DNA of 64,000 nt from Moraxella sp. (GTDB lineage Bacteria; Pseudomonadota; Gammaproteobacteria; Pseudomonadales; Moraxellaceae). Under the pieces are notes generated by a model, which did no database searches, was not told the origin of the DNA, and saw only the letters and a list, made by a program, of their open reading frames with translations. The stretch covers positions 56,639 through 120,638 of the forward strand of contig NZ_JAUNDY010000001.1 of the NCBI RefSeq assembly GCF_030525845.1. The letters run 5' to 3'. Position numbers and translations under genes: made by a program. Below, piece after piece: positions 29,984 to 34,790 of this stretch; positions within the stretch are counted from its first letter, which is position 1, and each line of letters starts with the position of its first letter.

Positions 29984-30634
29984 TCAAGCCGTTAATTCTC
30001 TAAATACCCAAGGTCTCTTTGCACGGGCTTTTTGTTCAAAGGCTTTAATATCATCGCTATTTTGCAACGTCAAACCAATATCATCCAAACCATTTAATAA
30101 ACAATGCTTACGAAATGCGTCCACTTCAAAAGGATATTCTTTGCCACTTGGCGAAATCACCTTTTGATTTTGTAAATCTACGGTTAATTGATAGCCGACA
30201 TTATCAAAACATTCTTTAAATAATTCATCAACTTCACTTTCAGAAAGGATGACAGGAAGCATTCCGTTTTTAAAGCAGTTATTAAAGAAAATGTCCGCAA
30301 AACTTGGAGCAATCACGGTGCGAAAGCCATATTCATTTAATGCCCAAGGGGCGTGTTCACGGCTAGAACCACAACCAAAATTGGTACGAGCAAGTAGAAT
30401 AGTCGCCCCTTGATAGCGTTCTTGATTTAACACAAAATCAGGGTTTTTTGGGCGTTTGGCAATGTCTTGCCCTAGAAAGCCCTCGTCCAAATAACGCAAT
30501 TCATCAAATAAATTATCGCCAAAACCTGTGCGTTTAATGGATTTTAAAAACTGCTTAGGGATAATCAAGTCCGTATCCACATTGGCACGGTCTAGGGGGG
30601 CAACGATGCCGATTTCGGTGGTGTATTGCTTCAT
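29984..30634 (-). CDS. leuD: 3-isopropylmalate dehydratase small subunit
   Basis: 216 residues. LeuD pairs with LeuC to isomerise 2- to 3-isopropylmalate. Typical segments are [20 protein letters not shown] near residue 20 and [20 protein letters not shown] at about 75-95 (swivel domain substrate loop). In most bacteria leuD directly follows leuC; here about 2.7 kb with six unrelated genes lies between them. The PEBP gene ends 24 bases upstream. Confidence 0.97.
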
Positions 30635-30658
30635 AATTTTTGCCTTTTAATTAAAATC

Positions 30659-31192
30659 TTACCAGTGATAATAAGCCGTCAAACTGGCACTTGCCAATAC
30701 CTTACCATTTAAATTAAATCCTAGCACGGCAGGGCTAATGCTATTTGGTAAATCCAGCACTTCATTTAACGCATATAGGGTAAAAATATAACGATGCGGT
30801 TTATCGCCTTGTGGAGGAAATGCCCCAATAAAGCCTGTTAAACCTGCGTCATTTTGCAATTCCAAAATGCCATTACCAAAATTATTTGAACCATTTTTAG
30901 GTAATTTACTCCAATCAGCAGGAATATTAAACGCATTCCAATGCCAAAAACCACAGCCCGTTGGTGCGTCTGGGTCGTACATTGTCAGTACAAAACTTTT
31001 GGTATCAGCAGGTGCGTTTGCCCATTGTAATTCTGGGCTGATGTTATTGCCTGTAAATCCCCAAATATTTGCCACATAATCATTGGATAAGGTGCTATTA
31101 GGGGCAATATCGGCACATTTTAACACCATTTCGCCTTGTGGCTGGGCGGGCTGGCGAACTTCTAAATAAGGGTTTTGAGCTAGGTCATTCAT
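30659..31192 (-). CDS. YbhB/YbcL-type PEBP (Raf kinase inhibitor-like) protein
   Basis: 177 residues covering one phosphatidylethanolamine-binding protein domain. The anion-pocket motifs are visible: FVLTMYDPDAPTGCGFWHWN and FIGAFPPQGDKPHRYIFTLY. No signal peptide, so it is probably cytoplasmic. Bacterial members have no agreed function. It lies 17 bases after the RelA/SpoT-domain gene and 24 before leuD, inside the leucine gene run. Confidence 0.9.
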   Translation of the reverse strand: MNDLAQNPYLEVRQPAQPQGEMVLKCADIAPNSTLSNDYVANIWGFTGNNISPELQWANAPADTKSFVLTMYDPDAPTGCGFWHWNAFNIPADWSKLPKNGSNNFGNGILELQNDAGLTGFIGAFPPQGDKPHRYIFTLYALNEVLDLPNSISPAVLGFNLNGKVLASASLTAYYHW

Positions 31193-31209
31193 AAAATTTT
31201 CCTTTTACA

Positions 31210-31788
31210 TTAAACAATATTTTTGACAAATTCTCGTTTATATAAACGATGACTTTCGATATTGGCTTTGGCATCTTTAATATCCCAAATCTGTAATTCC
31301 CAAGGGTAATAAAAATTACTGGAATTTTTAAAATAAATATGAATACCAATATAGCCGTCCACATCTCGCAAATACCAATTTTTAAGTTGATATTCGGCTT
31401 TAAATTTATCCAAATTCTCTAAAATTTGACTGATATATTCGGACGGCAAAATCATTCTTACTCCAAAAATATCATTTAAAATATTATTAACTGGATATTG
31501 ATTTTCTCTTGCCAAATAGCGATTGATTTTATCATGAATACTTTCAGCAGTTTTGACACGATAATAAAAATGAATGTCTTTAATATCGGCAAAAAACAAA
31601 TAATCATTAATCGCTTCGTGTAAATTCAAACGATAAGATAAAATATGCTCAGTTGACACATGAGCAAGCGTGCGTGATAAATTTACCTTTGCGACTTTGC
31701 CTGTTTCAAAATAATCATTGGAATATTGAGCGTGAATTTGATTAATTTCACGGATTAGGCGTTCGGTTTGTGCCAAATAATCATTCAT
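31210..31788 (-). CDS. Small RelA/SpoT-domain nucleotidyltransferase (possible toxic alarmone synthetase)
   Basis: 192 residues with a single RelA/SpoT synthetase-like domain; no HD hydrolase, TGS or ACT domains. Visible signatures are YYRVKTAESIHDKI (Arg77 and Lys79, substrate-binding in Rel enzymes), NDIFGVRMI (Asp106, metal site), GYIGIH (145-150) and WELQIWD (Glu164, equivalent to the catalytic Glu of ExQIRT). IESHRLYK closes the domain. Small single-domain members make (p)ppGpp, and some (toxSAS) are toxins that make ppApp or pyrophosphorylate tRNA. The start is 2 bases from the stop of the 104-residue gene, the usual geometry of an antitoxin-toxin pair. Activity is inferred. Confidence 0.7.
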   Translation of the reverse strand: MNDYLAQTERLIREINQIHAQYSNDYFETGKVAKVNLSRTLAHVSTEHILSYRLNLHEAINDYLFFADIKDIHFYYRVKTAESIHDKINRYLARENQYPVNNILNDIFGVRMILPSEYISQILENLDKFKAEYQLKNWYLRDVDGYIGIHIYFKNSSNFYYPWELQIWDIKDAKANIESHRLYKREFVKNIV

Positions 31789-31790
31789 TA

Positions 31791-32105
31791 CTATACACCA
31801 AATTCATCATCAATACACTTTAACACATAATTTCGACACTCATCAAGCGTTTGAAAATATTTAACATCATCGCCATACAATCCCAAGCCATCAAAACGAA
31901 AACTGTCATCAATAAAAAATGTTTCGCTGGCAATATGTTCTGCTAGGCTCGTAAAAGTTGGGGCGATATTATAGCTGTCCAATCGCCAAAGGGTAGCAAA
32001 ATAGCCTTTTTGATTTTTAAAAATTTCTATTTTAAATACCCATAATTCATCGGAGACTTCTATGGGGTCGGTAATTATAGTTTTGATAAGTTTGGAATAA
32101 TTCAT
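31791..32105 (-). CDS. Hypothetical protein paired with the RelA/SpoT-domain gene
   Basis: 104 residues, acidic, soluble. No family recognised. Core: ELWVFKIEIFKNQKGYFATL, then WRLDSYNIAPTF and an acidic C-terminus ending KCIDDEFGV. Its ATG directly abuts the PIN-gene stop codon (zero gap) and its own stop is 2 bases before the RelA/SpoT-domain start, so it is translationally linked to both. By position it is the best candidate antitoxin for the RelA/SpoT-domain protein; that is inference from arrangement only. Confidence 0.7.
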   Translation of the reverse strand: MNYSKLIKTIITDPIEVSDELWVFKIEIFKNQKGYFATLWRLDSYNIAPTFTSLAEHIASETFFIDDSFRFDGLGLYGDDVKYFQTLDECRNYVLKCIDDEFGV

Positions 32106-32501
32106 TTACCAAACACACTTCTTATAAAAATCGCTAATTTTATTATCTTTGCTGATTAAAATATTATCATCAAGCATTGTATTAGCAACAATTAAACGGT
32201 CAAATGGGTCTCGTGTGAATTTCAATTGGTTGGCAACATTAACCACATCTAACCAAGATTTTTGACAAATATTTAAGTCCAAAACTTGGTTAATGTGATT
32301 AAATATTTGCTTGGTATTTGCATTTATTCTACCAATTTCATATAAAAATTCTAATTCCAAAATAACCATTGGCGAAATTAAGAAACAATTATCCATATTT
32401 TCCAAAATATCAACCACTTTTTTGGATAATTGGTTTGTTTTGGATTGATAAAGCCATACCAAAATATGCGTATCCAAATAAATGTTATTTTGGTAAGTCA
32501 T
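32106..32501 (-). CDS. PIN-domain ribonuclease toxin (VapC-like)
   Basis: 131 residues from the ATG at 32501 (AAGGA ribosome site); the frame extends to 32528. The PIN acidic residues are Asp10 (IYLDTHILVWLY), Glu49 (VILELEFLYEIG), Asp98 and Asp101 (FTRDPFDRLIVAN) and Asp119 (LISKDNKI). VapC-type toxins cut specific tRNAs or rRNA when freed from their antitoxin. The upstream antitoxin gene overlaps it by 17 bases, the classic arrangement of a type II module. Confidence 0.9.
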   Translation of the reverse strand: MTYQNNIYLDTHILVWLYQSKTNQLSKKVVDILENMDNCFLISPMVILELEFLYEIGRINANTKQIFNHINQVLDLNICQKSWLDVVNVANQLKFTRDPFDRLIVANTMLDDNILISKDNKISDFYKKCVW

Positions 32502-32712
32502 TATACCATTCCTTTTCCCAATCAACATTTATCACATCATCATAGTTACCATTAATTGTATTGGGGTGAGCAACCAATTTAGATAAATCTCGTTTTTTAA
32601 TTTTTGGGGTAGTGGTATCATTTTTAATCATAATATCTTGCCCAAAACCTGCAATCATTTTCATAAATACAGGCACAAGTTCATCTTTGATTTGTACATT
32701 AAAATTTTGCAT
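32485..32712 (-). CDS. Antitoxin of the PIN-domain module (VapB-like)
   Basis: 75 residues, consistent with a type II antitoxin: an N-terminal segment (MQNFNVQIKDELVPVFMKMI) that could form a DNA-binding dimer, then a charged, flexible C-terminus with Trp (DVINVDWEKEWYNDLPK) that would wrap the toxin. Overlap with the PIN gene and gene order support the call. The family name is not certain from sequence. It is probably autoregulatory, as such antitoxins usually are; a 73-base gap upstream could hold its own promoter. Confidence 0.78.
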   Translation of the reverse strand: MQNFNVQIKDELVPVFMKMIAGFGQDIMIKNDTTTPKIKKRDLSKLVAHPNTINGNYDDVINVDWEKEWYNDLPK

Positions 32713-32785
32713 ACCATTTCCCCATTTAACAACACAACAATCATAACTAAATTTTGGTTAACATAAAAAAATCTCTATCCAACCA

Positions 32786-33307
32786 CTATTCTGCAATCAC
32801 TGGAATATTAAACTTATCAAAAGCATCAATCAACTTTTTAATTTTATTTTCATCATTATGAATCAGCAAAAAATAAGCATTTTCTTGTAAACCCAATTCC
32901 ACCAAACGCAAATTATGCGGTGCTAATTTCTTATCGAAATAGCCAATAATATATTGGCGATGCAAATCACAATAGTCATAAAAATCCATTTCATCACACT
33001 CATCTTCATCACCAACAGCTTCTTCATAATCATCAAACATATCGCTGGTATCAATTACCAATTGACGATTTTTGATAATAAAGAACTTCTCAAAATCTAT
33101 ACAGGGTTCTTTCCATTCCATATATTCCATAAATTGACCGTCAGCAAAACTCGCATAACCATTATCCAAATCCCAACCCAAAAGCGGAAATAACACATCA
33201 TAAAGTAATGATTCATCATTGCCATCATATTGGATTTTATCCAACAAAATATCTGGTACTTCTGCACATTCTGCTAAGGTTGTTTTTAAAAAATCCAAAT
33301 TTGTCAT
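32786..33307 (-). CDS. Hypothetical acidic protein downstream of leuC
   Basis: 173 residues from the ATG at 33307; the frame runs upstream into leuC without family sense. Strongly acidic, with a run of Asp/Glu (SDMFDDYEEAVGDEDECDEM). Other segments: LLYDVLFPLLGWDLDNGYAS and CIDFEKFFIIKNRQLVIDTS. No family recognised. It lies 61 bases after leuC and is the first of the non-leucine genes in the run. Composition resembles small acidic immunity-type proteins, but no toxin partner is adjacent. Confidence 0.72.
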   Translation of the reverse strand: MTNLDFLKTTLAECAEVPDILLDKIQYDGNDESLLYDVLFPLLGWDLDNGYASFADGQFMEYMEWKEPCIDFEKFFIIKNRQLVIDTSDMFDDYEEAVGDEDECDEMDFYDYCDLHRQYIIGYFDKKLAPHNLRLVELGLQENAYFLLIHNDENKIKKLIDAFDKFNIPVIAE

Positions 33308-33368
33308 CTTATTCTCCACAATAATATTTGGATTGAGGATATTCAATAAATACCCCCAATTTTTACTG

Positions 33369-34790
33369 CTACGCCACCGCTCGCACATCCACAAAATGCC
33401 CATAAATTGCCGCCGCCGCCGCCATTGCAGGACTCACAAGGTGCGTACGACCGCCATTGCCTTGACGACCTTCAAAGTTACGGTTAGACGTACTGGCACA
33501 ATGTTCACCTGATTGCAATTTATCCGCATTCATCGCAAGACACATAGAACAGCCCGGCTCACGCCATTCAAATCCCGCATCAATAAAGATTTTATCCAAA
33601 CCTTCACTTTCTGCTTGTTTTTTAACCTGACCTGAACCTGCTACAACCATTGCTTGCTTGATGGTTGGGGCGACTTTTTTACCTTCTACGATTTTGGCGA
33701 CTTCTCGCAAATCTTCAATACGAGAATTGGTACACGAGCCAATGAACACACGGTCAAGGGTAATGTCTGACAATGATTGACCTGCTGTTAAGCCCATATA
33801 TTGATAAGCTCGTGTCCAGTCATTTTTTTGCACATCGTCTTTTGCCATATCTAAGGTTGGTACATTGGCGGAGACTGGAATGACCATTTCAGGCGAAGTT
33901 CCCCACGAAATTTGTGGTTCAATCTCATCGCCATTTAACACCACCACCGCATCAAAATGAGCATCATCGTCCGATTTTAGGGTATTCCAATAGGCAACGG
34001 CTTTGTCCCAATTCTCGCCAGTTGGGGCATAGGGGCGACCTTTGACATAATCTATCGTCTTATCGTCCACCGCCACAAGTCCAACCCTTGCACCGCCCTC
34101 AATCGCCATATTACACACCGTCATACGCCCTTCAATCGACATATCACGGAACACCTGTCCACCAAATTCAATGGCATAGCCCGTTCCGCCTGCTGTGCCA
34201 ATTTTGCCAATGATTGCCAAAATGACATCTTTTGGGGTAACTCCTTTGCCCAGTTTGCCGTCCACTCGTACCAGCATATTTTTCATTTTCTTTTGTACAA
34301 GGCACTGAGTAGCTAAAACATGCTCAACCTCACTAGTACCAATACCATGTGCCAAACAGCCCAAAGCACCGTGCGTTGCGGTATGACTGTCGCCACACAC
34401 CACCGTCATTCCCGGCAAGGTCAAGCCCTGCTCTGGTCCTACCACGTGGACGATGCCTTGACGGTCATCGTTAATGCCAAATTGCACCACATTAAAGGTT
34501 TTGCAGTTGTCATCAAGGGTTTTGACTTGAATGCGAGAAGTATCGTCTTCAATGCCCGAAATGCCCTGCGAGCGTTCTTTGGTGGAAGTCGGGACATTGT
34601 GGTCGGGTGTGGCAATGTTTGCCGACAGTCGCCAAGGGGTACGCCCTGCGAGCTGTAAGCCTTCAAATGCTTGTGGACTGGTGACTTCATGTAATAATTG
34701 ACGGTCAATATAAATCAAAGACGAGCCATCATCTCGTTGTTTGACCAAATGGTCGTCCCAAAGTTTGTCATATAAGGTCTTGCCTGCCAT
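33369..34790 (-). CDS. leuC: 3-isopropylmalate dehydratase large subunit
   Basis: 473 residues, aconitase family, family length. It binds a 4Fe-4S cluster through the cysteines in [13 protein letters not shown] and [14 protein letters not shown]-terminal signatures [16 protein letters not shown] and [20 protein letters not shown] are clear. It is first in the minus-strand run and carries the only clear promoter region (34791-35025). Its partner leuD is displaced downstream by six inserted genes. Confidence 0.97.

Follow-up and report, generated by a model that had tools for sequence, protein, structure and literature searches.

The occurrence of a RelA/SpoT-type synthetase gene 2 bases downstream of a small gene of no recognised family raises the question of whether the small protein is the antitoxin of a toxic enzyme, or whether the synthetase is kept silent in another way. 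Both genes lie on the minus strand of the window, which is the whole stretch of 64,000 nucleotides analysed here (Moraxella sp., contig NZ_JAUNDY010000001.1), and Table 1 gives their coordinates with those of the surrounding genes. The sequence-only reading had described the pair as a candidate module, in which a 192-residue synthetase would be neutralised by a 104-residue protein of an undescribed antitoxin type. The position of the 104-aa ORF, upstream of the synthetase ORF and ending 2 bases before it, was confirmed, as was that of the adjoining PIN module noted in the same reading, whose PIN ORF abuts the 104-aa ORF and overlaps the 75-aa ORF. In the window, the synthetase is one of several accessory genes (the PIN module, the 104-aa gene and the PEBP gene) located between leuC and leuD.

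Table 1. Features of the leuC-leuD interval in the window.
Feature	Coordinates	Strand	Evidence
RelA/SpoT-type synthetase, 192 aa, single domain	31210..31788	-	Pfam RelA_SpoT, FaRel2 match
104-aa protein without family match, Moraxellaceae hotspot gene; partner presumed by the sequence-only reading	31791..32105	-	
PIN-domain (VapC-like) protein	32106..32528	-	PF01850, E 1.4e-9
75-aa ORF, position as for a VapB-type antitoxin	32485..32712	-	no Pfam match
PEBP gene of YbhB/YbcL type, hotspot member on the downstream side of the synthetase	30659..31192	-	PF01161, E 3.3e-38
leuC, hotspot border upstream	33369..34790	-	name by sequence recognition
leuD, hotspot border downstream	29984..30634	-	name by sequence recognition

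The Pfam search assigned residues 77-185 of the synthetase to RelA_SpoT (PF04607, E 1.9e-6, 28.5 bits against a cut-off of 27) and found no hydrolase domain in its 192 residues, which bears out the single-domain enzyme that had been proposed. Matches were also obtained to the PADLOC model PDC-S33 (E 1.4e-6) and to phrog_4012 of PHROGs, a family of unknown function (E 1e-69), and all NCBIfam matches fell far below their cut-offs (best XopAD, E 8.7e-4). The PDB sequence search returned FaRel2 as the best match (E 3.5e-10), and a ten-row family profile searched against the PDB gave E values of 7.6e-9 for FaRel2, 1.6e-3 for YwaC and 2.5e-3 for 2be3. The AlphaFold2 model of the synthetase had a mean pLDDT of 84 and a pTM of 0.83.

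The available text of PMC11782079 names R64, K66, S70, K74, R77, D90, G93, R95, E145 and Q147 as the residues of FaRel2 that engage ATP and Mg, and Y128 as an acceptor-site residue. In the alignment, the ATP/Mg residues map, in that order, to R77, K79, S83, K87, R90, D106, G109, R111, E164 and Q166 of the synthetase, and Y128 maps to Y146. In the family alignment, whose 110 rows include near-copies, R77, K79, K87, D106, G109, R111, E164 and Q166 are invariant, Y146 is kept in 109 rows, and S83 and R90 are each kept in 108. The four residues that the sequence-only reading had singled out (R77, K79, D106 and E164, aligned with FaRel2 R64, K66, D90 and E145) are therefore at catalytic positions and kept throughout. 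The acceptor-stem tRNA patch formed by K28 and R29 in FaRel2 appears only partly conserved in the synthetase clade, which counts against the explanation that we prefer below: the K28 position holds K in 59/110 and S in 46/110 rows (S38 in the window), and the R29 position holds H in 77/110, R in 25 and K in 7 rows (R39 in the window). The dN/dS of the synthetase was 0.075-0.168 against five of the eight relatives compared, dS being saturated for the other three, and that of the 104-aa gene was about 0.17-0.28 against four orthologues; because of these low values, neither ORF is a chance one. Judged from sequence, the synthetase is apparently intact and toxSAS-like, with FaRel2 and PhRel2 as its nearest kin.

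The genome_contigs scan returned 184 synthetase relatives, and the best 80 of these, at 57-88% identity, came from Moraxella, Neisseria, Streptococcus, Pasteurellaceae, Acinetobacter, Fibrobacterota and cyanobacteria; 79 of the 80 loci carried a synthetase ORF and were used below (L085, with no such ORF, was left out). A full-length synthetase was found in 27 of 348 family genomes and fragments in 4 more, divided by match length, and the class-level search found it in 1 of 369 genomes, the window's own. Members were present on prophages, satellite phages and plasmids. Using the synthetase as query, 26 phage records were matched, of which 10 were Streptococcus phages or satellites at 60-80% identity. 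LILY_31 of phage Lily, at 30.6% identity, was alignable over the whole length and presumably corresponds to the PhRel2 of phage Lily of which the available text of PMC11782079 describes a model. This full-length alignment with PhRel2-like proteins, together with the FaRel2 match, upholds the toxSAS-type kinship that had been proposed. In a quick tree search, run with housekeeping SAS and FaRel2 left out and returning long-branch warnings, 49 window-clade rows were split from 12 PhRel2-like rows by one branch (SH-aLRT 100). The 49 rows came from Pseudomonadota, Bacillota, Fibrobacterota, Cyanobacteriota and Acidobacteriota, several of them being MAGs, and the clade is present in at least five phyla, in some by MAGs only. 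Neisseria copies (L030 and L032) have the DNA uptake sequence, GCCGTCTGAA, nearby, which fits spread by transformation. The plasmid collection lists two entries of Neisseria gonorrhoeae (L023) at 2.17 Mb, a size that suggests chromosomes. A common insertion signal for the synthetase gene was considered and rejected, as no common flanking sequence was seen by eye in 32 loci.

A partner shared among the relatives was then sought in the gene neighbourhoods, where neighbours were named by sequence recognition except for those checked by Pfam. Among the 46 loci left from the best 80 of 184 after dereplication at 90%, the commonest adjacent family, a rhamnose-operon gene, occurred in 6; near-copies were removed in the dereplicated counts alone. 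As a control, the same procedure on 23 PhRel2-like loci (L149, with no ORF match, left out) found GepA adjacent in 21, and in 15 of 17 after dereplication. A BLAST search with GepA, run on the loci without dereplication, placed it beside the synthetase in 22 of these 23; it was beside none of the 113 loci at >=45% identity. Thus, a conserved adjacent or fused antitoxin was not found across the synthetase family, at most 6 of the 46 dereplicated loci having a like neighbour. Prior to dereplication, an AadE-type gene adjoined the synthetase in 18 of the 79 loci. Each of these was of Streptococcus type, and the finding counts against the preferred explanation.

By mechanical ORF calls, a codirectional ORF lay <=100 bp upstream in 70/79 loci and the synthetase was tightly sandwiched between codirectional ORFs in 31/79; an upstream codirectional ORF of 45-150 aa within the same distance was found in 11/79. 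An ORF of about 97-125 residues, assigned by sequence recognition to the cold-shock type, adjoins the synthetase in several family regions (upstream in L265, L268, L269 and L021; downstream in L267). Because of these small upstream ORFs and cold-shock-type ORFs, partners specific to single loci could exist. They form part of one alternative, that the synthetase is a true toxin checked by a factor that is not adjacent or not shared, be it a host hydrolase that would take the modification off again, an antitoxin encoded elsewhere or locus-specific neighbours. According to the available part of PMC11559606, the toxicity of FaRel2 is countered by a small alarmone hydrolase, and in a few loci the synthetase is preceded by a small ORF or by a nucleotidyltransferase gene (NTP_transf_2 in L034, AadE-type in L070). 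Against this stand the absence of a common partner in the 46 dereplicated loci and the spread over distant hosts, which would demand a universal hydrolase, and we consider this alternative quite improbable.

For the 104-aa protein, no match was found in Pfam (E 1 or less), NCBIfam, PADLOC or PHROGs, in agreement with the absence of a recognised family stated earlier, and the PDB sequence search gave one sequence at E 0.59. No PanA/DUF4065 antitoxin was detected in it by Pfam, and the YXXY motif of ATfaRel2/pZFD was absent from all seven sequences. Its model had a mean pLDDT of 71, and none of the 159 PDB matches reached E <=0.001 (best E 1.0), with no toxSAS antitoxin named among the best 50 of them. 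The 104-aa profile matched 11 of 348 family genomes, with a close version in six (G000, G002, G011, G016, G021 and G606), the window's own genome alone among 369 of the class, and a single remnant (L028, G004) over the 79 genome_contigs synthetase loci. The 104-aa gene was hence found only in Moraxellaceae, mostly at leuC-leuD, among these 348 family and 369 class genomes. Plasmid searches with the protein and its C28 paralogue, the scan of viral_contigs with its family, and the phage search with the distant homologue in L007 gave no result; the L007 homologue had a weak PHROG match (phrog_36295, E 4.9e-4). A match in G079 (E 7.6e-4) was dropped, as the profile search did not repeat it. The distant homologues at L007:1208-1788 and L164:1483-2001, the latter in the window's genome, each follow a small cysteine-containing ORF; these ORFs are alike, with a similar C-terminal pattern and no significant Pfam match, and one might guess at a toxin-immunity pair.

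The leuC-leuD interval of Moraxella (29984-34790 in the window; L189-L204) is a hotspot in which the small genes vary between species. Sixteen regions were compared, leuD being found in 17 of 22 genus genomes (five had no leuD match, and G009 was left out because of a contig end). Nine of the 16 contain PIN relatives, a relative of the 75-aa ORF precedes the PIN ORF in several, and the PEBP gene is present in most. Both the synthetase and the 104-aa gene are intact in the window and in G606. In G004, the synthetase is intact while roughly the final 35 codons of the 104-aa gene remain, and in G605 (contig L027) the synthetase is present and nothing matches the 104-aa protein. Reciprocally, G011 has an intact 104-aa gene next to a synthetase reduced to 59 residues, the 104-aa gene has no synthetase adjacent in G002, G016 and G021, and G018 retains a 16-residue match to the 104-aa start (E 4e-5) with no synthetase. 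In G021, the interval also holds a SUKH-1 gene (Pfam), and a single 285-codon ORF (L002:1501-2358) spans the 104-aa gene together with the one for PEBP. Both genes occur in 3 of 348 family genomes, adjacent in G000 and G606 and unlinked in G002, which is above expectation (Fisher p 0.007, ancestry uncorrected); within the genus, both occur in 2 of 22 (p 0.52, likewise uncorrected). The co-occurrence expected of a partner was obtained at the family level and not within the genus.

A second place in Moraxella, between thiL and pgpA, was compared with the pgpA start taken approximately. The gap measured 24, 49, 85, 46 and 137 bp in G004, G013, G014, G015 and G020; gaps of 580-614 bp in G006, G008, G009 and G012 were filled by the synthetase. 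The gap of 1036 bp in G002 holds the synthetase followed by a 136-aa ORF, which counts against the preferred explanation. Nine further genomes that were inspected have another ORF, 204-265 codons long, in this slot. In G606, the synthetase is present twice, at leuC-leuD and at thiL-pgpA (L255 and L256).

These comparisons bear on the proposal that the 104-aa protein, made from one operon with the synthetase, neutralises it as an antitoxin of a new type. The 2-base spacing, the intact pair in G606, the family-level co-occurrence and the case of G011, where the synthetase was lost and the 104-aa gene kept, the direction expected of a toxin-antitoxin pair, all speak for it. They are opposed by the synthetases of G004 and G605, which lack an intact 104-aa partner, the second synthetase copy of G606, which has no 104-aa gene adjacent, the 104-aa genes of G002, G016 and G021, the single remnant in the 79 loci and the missing YXXY motif, and we hold the proposal to be very improbable. 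In the form of an obligate antitoxin, it was rejected because of the separations at leuC-leuD, the lack of a common neighbour and the absent motif. Since the synthetase relatives have no antidote neighbour in common, the 104-aa gene is probably a chance neighbour, and most likely a resident of the hotspot, which cautions that adjacency alone is a poor ground for naming antitoxins.

The other places occupied by the synthetase are of two kinds. Most members are located in housekeeping operons, which counts against the preferred explanation: within the best 80 of 184, parC lay <=3 genes away in 25 Streptococcus-type loci, the Pasteurellaceae rhamnose operon was nearby in 7 loci, purine nucleoside phosphorylase in 5, thiL in 4 Moraxella loci, rsmA in 3 of Neisseria and dat in 1. 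Others are mobile or defence-associated. In the prophages Javan5 and Javan53, the synthetase is flanked by a CI-like repressor and by a small ORF that neighbours the integrase and is annotated as a mobile element protein in Javan53. In the satellites Javan292 and Javan293, the integrase and the repressor enclose it, each separated from it by a single gene; the gene towards the integrase in Javan292 encodes a Fic-domain protein (Pfam). Genes of hsd type were found <=3 genes away in 11/79 loci, and 8 of the 17 family-genome regions fetched had the order hsdM-hsdS-synthetase-hsdR, with HsdM, HsdS and HsdR confirmed by Pfam in L100. An Abi_2 gene precedes the synthetase in L089. Fic-type genes occurred <=3 genes away in 19/79 loci (e.g. 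L070, L099 and L100), with Pfam checks in L070, L100 and the satellite L165.

The solitary genes in housekeeping operons, the conserved active site and the purifying selection would also fit a harmless enzyme, i.e. a non-toxic small alarmone synthetase that makes (p)ppGpp or a related nucleotide and needs no antitoxin, and mobile stand-alone SAS groups were described in the 2011 RSH survey, in its available part (PMC3153485). By sequence, however, YwaC and 2be3 are more remote from the synthetase than FaRel2 and the PhRel2-like proteins are, the lysogeny slots of prophages and satellites and the hsd operons are unusual places for housekeeping enzymes, and the distribution is scattered (31/348 family genomes, 4 of them with fragments only; 1/369 class genomes). 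Such a non-toxic enzyme is in our view somewhat unlikely.

The explanation that we prefer, and that we believe and doubt in equal measure, is that the clade is related to the PhRel2-like toxSAS and represents a mobile, tRNA-acting defence effector encoded by one gene, with no common antitoxin adjacent. Because its active site is conserved, the synthetase would be predicted to transfer pyrophosphate from ATP to a 3'-hydroxyl, and because its relatives FaRel2 and PhRel2 act so, the most likely acceptor would be the CCA end of tRNA. As close relatives exist without an adjacent antitoxin, the enzyme may stay silent until it meets a trigger such as phage infection, and the prophage, satellite and hsd-operon places suggest a defence role, in which the synthetase would be a one-gene defence or abortive-infection effector. 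Support was obtained here from the homology, the conserved site, the separation in the tree from the GepA/PanA-linked relatives, the lack of a common neighbour, the presence in at least five phyla and on mobile elements, the loci within unrelated operons and the independence from the 104-aa gene at leuC-leuD. A bolder form, in which the clade is antitoxin-free, pyrophosphorylates tRNA, is by its own nature inactive until phage infection activates it, travels between phyla as a naked single gene and forms a PrrC-like second defence line between hsdS and hsdR of type I restriction operons, seems unlikely. A clade with a conserved site and no common adjacent antitoxin poses the question of how it is kept silent, and its members are single-gene candidates for phage-triggered translation shut-off.

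Among known systems, PrrC is an anticodon nuclease located in hsd operons. Like some members of the window clade, it occurs within type I restriction operons, and tRNA is a possible target of both, whereas its enzyme is unrelated to the synthetase and most window-clade members sit outside hsd operons. A toxSAS-like synthetase is of a known kind, and the mobile form without a common adjacent antitoxin is apparently the new part, no description of which was found in the literature searched, from which most subscription papers are absent; the toxSAS described in the available texts of that literature have an antitoxin, acting in trans or in cis, that restrains them. The available part of the 2011 survey places the SAS groups fpRel and fpRel2 in Firmicutes and beta-proteobacteria, and fpRel in alpha-proteobacteria as well, and names no function for them (PMC3153485). 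Their distribution, as given in the survey listing, overlaps that of the window clade, and the clade may be one of these already named groups. CapRel, described in the available text of PMC9712102 as a fused, phage-triggered toxSAS, resembles the window clade in single-gene carriage and prophage members, but carries a fused antitoxin, for which the synthetase has no room because it is 192 aa long with the synthetase domain reaching residue 185. FaRel2 of FaRel2/ATfaRel2 (Coprobacillus sp. D7) shares the mapped donor and acceptor-site residues with the synthetase, for which, unlike FaRel2, no ATfaRel2-type antitoxin was recognised; gene order in the FaRel2 operon was not used as evidence, as two papers give it oppositely in their available parts. 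The FaRel2 chain has about 37 C-terminal residues beyond the aligned part and, as far as the available text of PMC11782079 goes, an antitoxin-dependent dimer region, and the short C-terminus of the synthetase would fit a loss of that region. The PhRel2-like toxSAS, LILY_31 and its relatives, differ in having a GepA/PanA-type neighbour, where the window clade has no GepA neighbour, and 10-25 residues after F187, against 1-6 in the aligned window-clade rows, and they have the full-length alignment and the catalytic and PWELQIW motifs in common with the window clade.
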